From: Paenibacillus sp. FSL W8-0426
GTDB lineage: Bacteria; Bacillota; Bacilli; Paenibacillales; Paenibacillaceae
Reading direction: 5' to 3'
DNA: 64,000 nucleotides
NCBI RefSeq assembly: GCF_037969725.1
Contig: NZ_CP150203.1
Location: 2,434,001 to 2,498,000 of the forward strand
The notes beneath the pieces were generated by a model. That model had not been told where the DNA came from, searched no databases, and saw only the letters and a list, made by a program, of their open reading frames with translations. Each line of letters starts with the position of its first letter. The first letter of the stretch is position 1. Positions 908 through 62,980 of the stretch are shown piece by piece. A program made the translations under genes and the position numbers.

Positions 908-1136
908 CTATATAAACCGCAAAAAACATACACACGTAAACGGAGAGGCAGAACCAATCTGGAGAAGCGAAGCGTTCCCTAAAAGCTTTCTGAAAGAAAG
1001 CTGCATCGGAAGCATAGGCTTATCACCGGATTTTCCCCTAAGAAGAGGGGATTCAAAAAAATCTGGGGATAACAGCGATCGGAAGATGGTACTGCACTCG
1101 CAGTGGCCTTGTGTGATTGATTAATGGGGTTAAGTA
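908..1136. repeat. Dispersed repeat, copy A (type-1 ends)
   Basis: The left end CTATATAAACCGC (908-920) and an AACGGAGAGGCAGAACC block are followed by the shared core: a run beginning CTGGAGAAGCGAAGCG, an AGCTTTC/GAAAGCT hairpin, a GCATCGGAAGCATAGG segment, a CCGGATTTT/AAAATCTGG long stem, GGGGATAACAGCGATCGGAA and GATGGTACTG. The right end is degenerate (GGGGTTAAGTA instead of GCGGTTTATATAG). It is closest to copy B at 17.5 kb and shares its core with copy G at 62.7 kb. It ends about 110 bases before the exonuclease gene. It contains no convincing coding frame. Confidence 0.8.
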
Positions 1137-5961: not shown

Positions 5962-6009
5962 GTTGAACTGGACATTTACACGATAAAAATCACTGGTTCA
6001 ACTTCTATA
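5962..6009. repeat. Dispersed repeat, copy E (both ends joined, core deleted)
   Basis: GTTGAACTGGACATTTACAC is the type-2 left end seen in copies D and G. After only CGAT it runs straight into AAAAATCACTGGTTCAAC, the type-2 right end of copy G. The roughly 190-bp core is absent. The two ends can pair into one hairpin. It sits just ahead of the ParB-like gene. Confidence 0.7.
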
Positions 6010-11184: not shown

Positions 11185-11246
11185 CCGATCGGAAGATGGT
11201 ACAGTGCTCGTAGTACCTAGTGAATTTATTACTGCGGTTTATATCA
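11185..11246. repeat. Dispersed repeat, copy C (right end only, type 1)
   Basis: CGATCGGAAGATGGTAC, a CTCGTAG segment, and TTATTACTGCGGTTTATAT match the right-hand part of copy B (17.5 kb). The left end and most of the core are missing. It ends just before the terminator at 11254. Confidence 0.7.
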
Positions 11247-17511: not shown

Positions 17512-17706
17512 CTATATAAACGCAAAAACATACAAACACACGTTAACGGAGAGGCAGAACCAATCTGGAGAAGCAAAGCGGTCGCGTTTATCACCGGATT
17601 TTCCCGCTAGAAAAGGGGAACCAAAAAATCTGGGGATAACAGCGATCGGAAGATGGTACTGCACTCGTAGTGGCCTTGTGTGATTGATTAGTGCGGTTTA
17701 TATAGA
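17512..17706. repeat. Dispersed repeat, copy B (complete, type-1 ends)
   Basis: CTATATAAACGCA (left) and TGCGGTTTATATAG (right) are terminal inverted repeats. Between them are ACACACGTTAACGGAGAGGC, the AATCTGGAGAAGCAAAGCGG block, a CCGGATTTT/AAAAATCTGG stem and CAGCGATCGGAAGATGG. It is about 45 bases shorter than copy G because the AGCTTTC/GAAAGCT hairpin and the following hairpin are absent. A frame passing through it (17495-17683) is not conserved as protein among copies. Confidence 0.8.
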
Positions 17707-36268: not shown

Positions 36269-36350
36269 CTATATAGGTTGAACTAGACATTTACACGATA
36301 ACGGAGAGGGCAGAAAGAATCTGGAGAAGCGGAGCGTTCGCCTAAAAAGA
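36269..36350. repeat. Dispersed repeat, copy D (left half, type-2 end)
   Basis: CTATATAGGTTGAAC, then ACATTTACACGATAACGGAG, GGCAGAAAGAATCTGGAGAA and a GCGGAGCGTTCGCC hairpin match the left half of copy G. The element breaks off at about 36350 and the right end is missing. It lies 43 bases before the methyltransferase gene. Confidence 0.72.
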
Positions 36351-52788: not shown

Positions 52789-52890
52789 AGCAGAATCAAT
52801 CTGAAGAAGCAAAGCGGTCGCTTAAAAAAGCTTTCGGAAAGAAACCTGAAGCGGAAGCATAGGCGGGTCACCGGATTAATATAAAATGCA
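52789..52890. repeat. Dispersed repeat, copy F (core fragment)
   Basis: CAGAATCAATCTGAAGAAGC, then AAAGCGGTCGCTTAAAAAAG, CTTTCGGAAAGAAACCTGAAGC and GGAAGCATAGGCGGGTCACC match the core block of copies A and G at about 80 percent. No left or right end is present. Unlike the other copies, it can be read as one uninterrupted peptide frame to a stop at 52862. Confidence 0.65.
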
Positions 52891-57730: not shown

Positions 57731-57769
57731 GATATAAACCGCCAAAAAACAAACACACGTTAACGGAGG
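57731..57769. repeat. Dispersed repeat, copy H (left end only, type 1)
   Basis: GATATAAACCGCCAAAAAAC then AAACACACGTTAACGGAGG matches the left end of copy B (ATATAAACGCAAAAACATAC, ACACACGTTAACGGAGAGG). The match stops at GGAGG, which is the ribosome site of the GH2 gene starting at 57775. No core or right end is present. Confidence 0.65.
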
Positions 57770-62741: not shown

Positions 62742-62980
62742 AACTATATAGATTGAACCGAAAATTTACACGATAACGAAGAGGGCAGAAAGAATCTGGA
62801 GAAGCGAAGCGGTCGCTTAAAAGCTTTCTGAAAGAAAGCTGCTTCGGAAGCATAGGCTGATCACCGGATTTTTCCTTTGAAAAAGGGAATTCGAAAAAAT
62901 CCGGGGATAACAGCGATCGAAAGATGGTTCTGACCGCGTAGTGTCTCTGTGTAAAAATCATTGGTTCAACCTATATAGTT
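62742..62980. repeat. Dispersed repeat, copy G (complete, type-2 ends)
   Basis: AACTATATAGATTGAACC (62742-62759) and GGTTCAACCTATATAGTT (62963-62980) are near-perfect terminal inverted repeats (one mismatch). The core has an AAGCGGTCGCTT hairpin, an AGCTTTC/GAAAGCT hairpin, TGCTTCGGAAGCA, a long CCGGATTTTT/AAAAATCCGG stem, and GGGGATAACAGCGATCG. TA flanks both sides of ACTATATAG/CTATATAGT, as a TA target duplication would leave. There is no transposase gene. Confidence 0.85.

Follow-up and report, generated by a model that had tools for sequence, protein, structure and literature searches.

A dispersed repeat family of Paenibacillus and related genera with transposon-like ends and a strand-specific folded core

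Results

The repeat family to which copy G of Paenibacillus sp. FSL W8-0426 belongs is, on balance, likely to be built of two layers, a strand-specific folded core being carried by several transposition systems. Copy G is one of eight pieces (A to H) recognized in the window, that is, the whole stretch of 64,000 nucleotides analysed, positions 2434001-2498000 on a single 6.9-Mb contig. The preliminary description took the family for either a miniature inverted-repeat element (MITE) of the TA-inserting IS630/Tc1 type or a structured RNA that had become mobile.

Copies in the window

The eight pieces are related, as had been described, each being matched by another in a within-window BLAST; the weakest, E, matched D at 3e-6 and G at 4e-4. 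With the covariance model of the core, full-length matches were obtained for B (E 2.9e-36), A (1.8e-26) and G (1.5e-23) and weak matches for D (1.2e-5) and F (2.2e-5). Piece C, matched to B at 3e-12 by BLAST, had a model E of 0.11, which is not significant, and pieces E and H were absent from the model matches in the window. The features are as follows, all on the + strand except where indicated.

62745..62977, +, copy G, complete element including the TA on each side (sequence, BLAST, model)
62745-62746 and 62976-62977, target TAs of copy G, read as a duplication on the model of another copy's empty site
62745..62759, +, left terminal inverted repeat of G, TATATAGATTGAACC, within a 21-bp match to an IS630 element
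62963..62977, -, right terminal inverted repeat of G, TATATAGGTTGAACC, read on the - strand
62783..62797, +, P3 stem of G, 5' side (covariation, strand tests)
62922..62935, +, P3 stem of G, 3' side (covariation, strand tests)
62798..62810, +, conserved junction GGAGAA and mini-hairpin GCGAAGC of G
62811..62816, +, first segment of the P4 rod of G, GGTCGC, partner GCGATC at 62913-62918
62817..62857, +, optional module of G, two small hairpins, missing in insertless copies such as B
62859..62918, +, remainder of the P4 rod of G, with CCGGATTTTT and AAAAATCCGG
909..1136, +, copy A, with a degenerate right end
17513..17704, +, copy B, complete, without the optional module
11185..11246, +, copy C, fragment of the right end (BLAST)
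36269..36350, +, copy D, fragment of the left end (BLAST, model)
5962..6009, +, copy E, pieces of both ends, core missing (BLAST)
52789..52890, +, copy F, fragment of the core (BLAST, model)
57731..57769, +, copy H, fragment of the left end (BLAST)

Several readings of the preliminary description were confirmed on the sequence itself: both terminal ends are present in B and G, TA flanks G on both sides, and the outer stem pairs as CCGGATTTTT with AAAAATCCGG in G and as CCGGATTTT with AAAATCTGG in A and B, through G-T. The commonest state at that outer-stem pair is G-U, in 63% of the copies with letters there. The fold of G was better than 200 of 200 shuffles on both strands (z -6.6 and -8.9). 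Copy A has lost its right TATATA end. Since copy E retains pieces of the ends without the core, loss of the core is possible. A transposase domain was not detected in the 20 ORFs scanned out of the 290 mechanical ORFs of the window, and it is for these 20 that the reported absence of a transposase holds.

Abundance and distribution

The whole-genome search, which had been suggested as a check, revealed a family far larger than the eight pieces of the window. The window's genome, 98-99% identical to that of strain JJ-223, contains at least 139 core-model matches at E <= 1e-3, a lower bound as 150 of 2719 candidates were scored; BLAST gave 40 scored matches out of 178 candidates. The youngest copies are 92-94% alike. 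Partial copies are tightly clustered at L135:3428-4272 in strain JJ-223, the optional hairpin module is seemingly doubled at L127:2462-2737, and the core copy at L259:1501-2219 has an RNase P RNA gene some 160 bases away.

The core was found in 79 of the 119 genomes and 18 of the 34 genera sampled in the order. A class-wide sample gave matches in 17 of 200 genomes, all in the window's family, a result by which the coverage of other families is not gauged, 163 matchless genomes being unlisted. Four genomes of other genera hold at least 80, 72, 41 and 40 copies, and one copy each was found in five genomes (G026, G123, G126, G148 and G160). In one genus, three genomes (L265, L267 and L269) have one copy each at a shared site, with no sign of mobility.

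Rfam had been named as a place where the family might already stand described. At gathering thresholds no match was obtained for the window or for 20 loci of other genera, and copy G, searched up to E 10, gave three weak unrelated matches only. No earlier description of the family was found in the literature searched, most subscription journals lying outside the reach of that search.

Terminal repeats and target sites in Paenibacillus

The ends of the Paenibacillus copies consist of TATATA followed by a short subfamily-specific stretch (GTTGAAC, AACCGC and AGATGAAC types). Among the copies listed, the end type is usually the same at both ends. An exception is L154:674-908, with GTTGAAC on the left and a different TATATA type on the right, which indicates that the ends of one copy are not always in agreement. 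A second Paenibacillus class has no TATATA ends and a different P3 stem, with TTAAAAATAAG-like ends in some copies (L130:3133-3292, L092:2300-2448, L103:6262-6697 and L126:7269-7417).

The comparison of empty sites, also proposed beforehand, yielded one clean case, for a copy other than G. In the comparison of L186 with L212, a copy present in JJ-223 and absent in the window's genome gave CCATC-TA[element]TA-GATC in the former and CCATC-TA-GATC in the latter, with flanks aligned at 99%, so that TA is the duplicated target. For a second polymorphic copy (L183 versus L187) the empty site is diverged, without a clean TA; the L184/L188 difference coincides with a larger island difference, and in the pairs L196/L195 and L217/L216 the copy is present in both members. 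Copy G itself is present in JJ-223 too. Of the 65 copies whose ends are exact, 45 are flanked by C on the left and 43 by G on the right, a preference for CTAG at insertion.

An element sharing these ends and carrying a transposase, for which a search had been recommended, was found in a relative. At contig ends of P. xylanexedens DSM 21292 the same end is joined to the C-terminus of a protein; when this end was searched in 75 genomes of the genus, matches were present in 10, the window's genome not being among these. The complete element, L198:418-1552, is 1.1 kb long and its ends, TATATAGATTGAAC and GTTCAATCTATATA, enclose a protein of 355 aa. This protein is an IS630 transposase (NF033545, 244 bits against a cut-off of 100; Pfam DDE_3), 53% identical to plasmid proteins annotated 'IS630-like element ISBs2 family transposase'. 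The left end of G matches the element over 21 bp at 95%, and no match above 11 bp was found between the core and the element. The partner is thus an autonomous element of the ISBs2 group of the IS630 family with the same ends and without the core, and the interior of the repeat was not seen to derive from the parent element, as it usually, though not always, does in MITEs. A shortened IS630 relative, L199:743-1550, keeps both ends and a 186-aa open frame, and is a possible step towards a MITE.

A candidate autonomous element at G000:6393614 and 6395537 was rejected, as the wide end pair encloses a response-regulator gene and no transposase. At L151:1611-3542 a stray left end and a near-complete copy enclose a response-regulator gene, in a composite-like arrangement.

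IS630-like terminal inverted repeats, duplicated TA and many dispersed copies are therefore found together. The TA-type MITE reading gains support from the one clean empty site and from the IS630 element with the same ends, and may be regarded as established as far as sequence allows. The IS630 transposase presumably moves the Paenibacillus copies in trans.

The core beside other ends

In other genera the core stands between ends unrelated to the TATATA ends of Paenibacillus. Yet further ends occur, and the types beside the core include:

GGCTCAAAACAATAATC
GGCCACTGAAAAA
TTGATAAA

Copies of G139 end in GGCTCAAAACAATAATCAGTGCTTG. Their flanking 8-mers are alike (mean 4.8 of 8, versus 3.1 when swapped; 14 of 20000 permutations), in a test on nine copies found in twelve loci in which copy L263, registered two bases off, was scored 0 despite AGTTAACT on both sides. 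These are signs of 8-bp target duplications. Long direct repeats in the form of terminator-like hairpins enclose six of the eight copies of genome G132 (scores 13-31, against a maximum of 10 when swapped), and those of copy L351 share 31 identical bases. At L349-L353 of this genome, two direct terminator-like hairpins flank the copies, as if the whole terminator had been duplicated on insertion. In G134 many ends GGCCACTGAAAAA stand beside terminator-like hairpins, the direct repeats being weak (1 of 20 above the swapped maximum). The direct-repeat test was flat in the remaining sets, including G139, for which it is too coarse at 8 bp. The partner search outside Paenibacillus covered the G139 ends alone: 14 ends were found and 8 regions read, with no transposase between ends.

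Fold of the core and compensatory change

A total of 77 copies without the optional module were aligned, a consensus fold was predicted and the covariance model R1 was obtained. Most of these copies came from loci found by a 26-base pattern inside the core, and the conservation of that stretch is biased upward because the copies were found with it.

The stem-covariation check that had been called for revealed strong compensatory change across genera. In 107 copies from other genera, pairing held in 97.3% of cells, and both-side changes occurred in 22 of 27 pairs and in 454 cells, against 102 in shuffles, in an alignment fitted to the model; alignments A2 and A4 were fitted to its structure. 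None of 500 shuffles reached the observed both-side change, and with slid partners pairing fell to 30-45%. A check independent of that alignment compared the own halves of each stem with all eight cross-genus swaps. Own halves paired better than every swap in 145 of 170 copies for the inner stem and in 131 of the 170 for the 38 nt next to it on the outside, after 102 candidates had been dropped for anchor misfit and others as duplicates or too short. The core has therefore a conserved fold with compensatory change beyond controls, as expected of a structured RNA.

Of 170 copies, 153 keep the junction G.AGA, and the commonest mini-hairpin is GC-GNA-GC, with AC-GNA-GT as its covarying form; these junction and hairpin shares are upper values, the selection pattern having contained the junction with one mismatch allowed. 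GNRA-like tetraloops are present in some copies. Judging from the kink-turn consensus, the core junction appears to resemble a kink-turn.

Strand asymmetry

The inner stem is more stable on the + strand in 164 of 170 copies and, by median, in 13 of 13 genera, much of this bias being one inherited shared G-U pair in copies that are not independent. In the outer arms the + strand is the more stable in 82 cases versus 85. Single-side changes were counted at variable sites of 158 Paenibacillus copies. The ratio of G-U to A-C was 32/7 in P3 and 131/40 in P4 (32/11 without two pairs); it was 58/48 in the arms and 78/91 at the tip. In 105 copies of other genera 195 G-U and 21 A-C were found (111 and 21 without one pair). 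The excess of G-U over A-C in the core, absent in the arms, points to a core that behaves as a single folded strand and to arms that behave like double-stranded repeats. Selection on one strand is thus found, and would look the same for RNA or single-stranded DNA. Reverse-strand model matches (positions 44-114) were dropped as the near-palindrome of the rod itself.

Of the mobile structured RNA suggested beforehand, the folded core selected on one strand stands, through covariation and the G-U excess in the core; its work as an RNA would be a further step.

Orientation relative to genes and replication

Between co-oriented genes, the + strand of the core is sense/antisense in 112/21 cases in Paenibacillus and 45/17 elsewhere, as counted with a simple ORF caller and with orthologous copies of near strains included. 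By source, the Paenibacillus counts are 27/8 for the window's genome, 14/1 for JJ-223 and 69/12 for other species. Of 346 distinct copies, 22 are inside ORFs and 27 at their edges.

With the origin placed at coordinate 1 and the terminus at 3.45 Mb, both by assumption, 108 of the 139 copies of the window's genome are co-oriented with replication. In nine other genomes, 87 of the 110 best-scoring listed copies are co-oriented with the fork, the origin being again assumed at coordinate 1. Two other genera, whose copies have other ends, show a bias pointing the same way relative to the core (6 of 8 and 7 of 8, small numbers). Of the 139 copies, 112 were placed and 100 classified by gene context: at gene-neutral sites 33 are co-fork and 11 anti-fork, between leading-strand genes 35 are sense and 9 antisense, and between lagging-strand genes 5 are sense and 7 antisense. 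Adding the fork to the gene model gave p 3e-5; adding genes to the fork model gave p 0.18. Gene orientation as the cause of the sense bias was weakened by this replication test. Orientation tracks replication more clearly than genes, which makes an action as single-stranded DNA possible. Leading-strand genes are in general also more expressed, so that selection at the RNA level is possible too. The orientation bias towards the lagging-strand template that marks IS200/IS605 elements is thus seen, under the assumed origin. IS200/IS605 elements are said to make no target duplication, whereas TA is duplicated here.

Discussion

In the reading that we prefer, the outer layer would be the terminal inverted repeats recognized by a transposase. 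In Paenibacillus an IS630-type transposase would act in trans and insert the element at TA, preferably CTAG, with duplication of the TA; the shared ends and the TA duplication are observed, and the action in trans is what they suggest. The inner layer would be the core, some 110-150 nt in length, with a + strand that forms a rod carrying the conserved junction, the GC-GNA-GC mini-hairpin and conserved internal loops; the core would have been kept across the order while its ends were swapped for unrelated ones. Several transposition systems have probably carried this core: different ends and target signatures are seen, from which the exchange is inferred. This two-layer reading is weakened a little by the mixed-end copy L154 and by direct-repeat tests that were flat for most sets. 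The folded strand could, as RNA in host transcripts, recruit a host factor to the junction, which would make the insertion tolerable or lead to processing of the transcript. There is about an even chance that it acts in this way in the transcripts it enters. In its widest form the two-layer reading makes the core an ancient order-wide rider whose ends changed repeatedly, using at least three unrelated systems (with TA, 8-bp and long terminator-site duplications), and whose fold shields transcripts or exploits the fork; this version comes just short of an even chance.

As the main alternative, the fold could act as single-stranded DNA, the core folding on the lagging-strand template and aiding capture, insertion or copying of the element, with the RNA fold incidental. 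Such a role would agree with the co-orientation with the fork (108/139 and 87/110; 33 versus 11 at gene-neutral sites) and with GC-GNA-GC, the letter pattern of very stable DNA mini-hairpins. IS200/IS605 elements provide a precedent on the lagging-strand template, with the same orientation bias of the folded strand as here (PMC5371812, accessible part). Against it, TA duplication belongs to a double-strand mechanism, the higher expression of leading-strand genes means that an RNA effect scaling with expression could look like the fork bias, and GNRA-like tetraloops occur in some copies. We regard it as possible but doubtful, action of the core as RNA appearing somewhat likelier than action as single-stranded DNA. 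The orientation bias might instead come from the transposases themselves, by interaction with the clamp at the fork, the core being plain structured RNA cargo. Several IS families are indeed fork-oriented through the sliding clamp, according to the accessible part of the same source (PMC5371812), but the same bias relative to the core is present with other ends (6/8 and 7/8, small numbers), and this explanation is unlikely.

An ordinary IS630 MITE, with hairpins as a by-product of inverted repeats and recent descent and with the core unselected, would have the true ends, the TA duplication, the partner and the close likeness of the youngest copies (92-94%). It would leave unexplained the cross-genus compensatory change, upheld by a stem-swap check independent of the model-fitted alignment, the strand asymmetry confined to the core, the insertion sequence without the core and the core with other ends, and it is very unlikely. 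Still less credible is a fixed, riboswitch-like RNA useful to the host and not itself mobile. The orthologous site that holds one copy in each of three congeneric genomes (L265, L267 and L269) would suit such an RNA, but copies with terminal repeats and target duplications are present by the dozen in many genomes, and for Paenibacillus a fixed RNA is contradicted by the TA empty site.

Comparison with known elements

Small interspersed bacterial repeats are usually regarded as species-bound relics of one insertion sequence. In the family described here the inner part looks older than any vehicle, with selection at the level of the fold on one strand. The comparisons that follow were made by published features only, as given in the accessible parts of the cited papers. 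The RUP of Streptococcus pneumoniae, an IS630-Spn1-dependent MITE of 107 bp with 108 copies, has TA termini and IS630-like ends (PMC2229807), like the present repeat. It is reported to be almost absent outside pneumococcus and S. mitis (PMC3049150), whereas the present core was found, beside ends of several kinds, in 18 of the 34 genera sampled. In the Bacillus cereus group, bcr1-bcr18 are likewise dispersed repeats, of which bcr1-3 are MITE-like and bcr10 and bcr18 have a conserved RNA structure, about half of the copies being found in transcripts (PMC3446304); MITE-like and RNA-like repeats are separate families there, whereas both layers are found in one element here. ERIC and Correia/NEMIS elements have TA termini and stable hairpins, as here. 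ERIC alters transcript stability in one orientation and NEMIS RNA was proposed as an RNase III substrate; a shared core with unrelated ends is not mentioned for either in the accessible part of that source (PMC2229807).

If the two-layer reading is true, a short non-coding cargo can outlast and switch transposition systems, and the elaborate folds of MITEs become a testable question, of tolerance in transcripts or of capture at the replication fork. A covariance model now exists for a dispersed element that is missing from Rfam.
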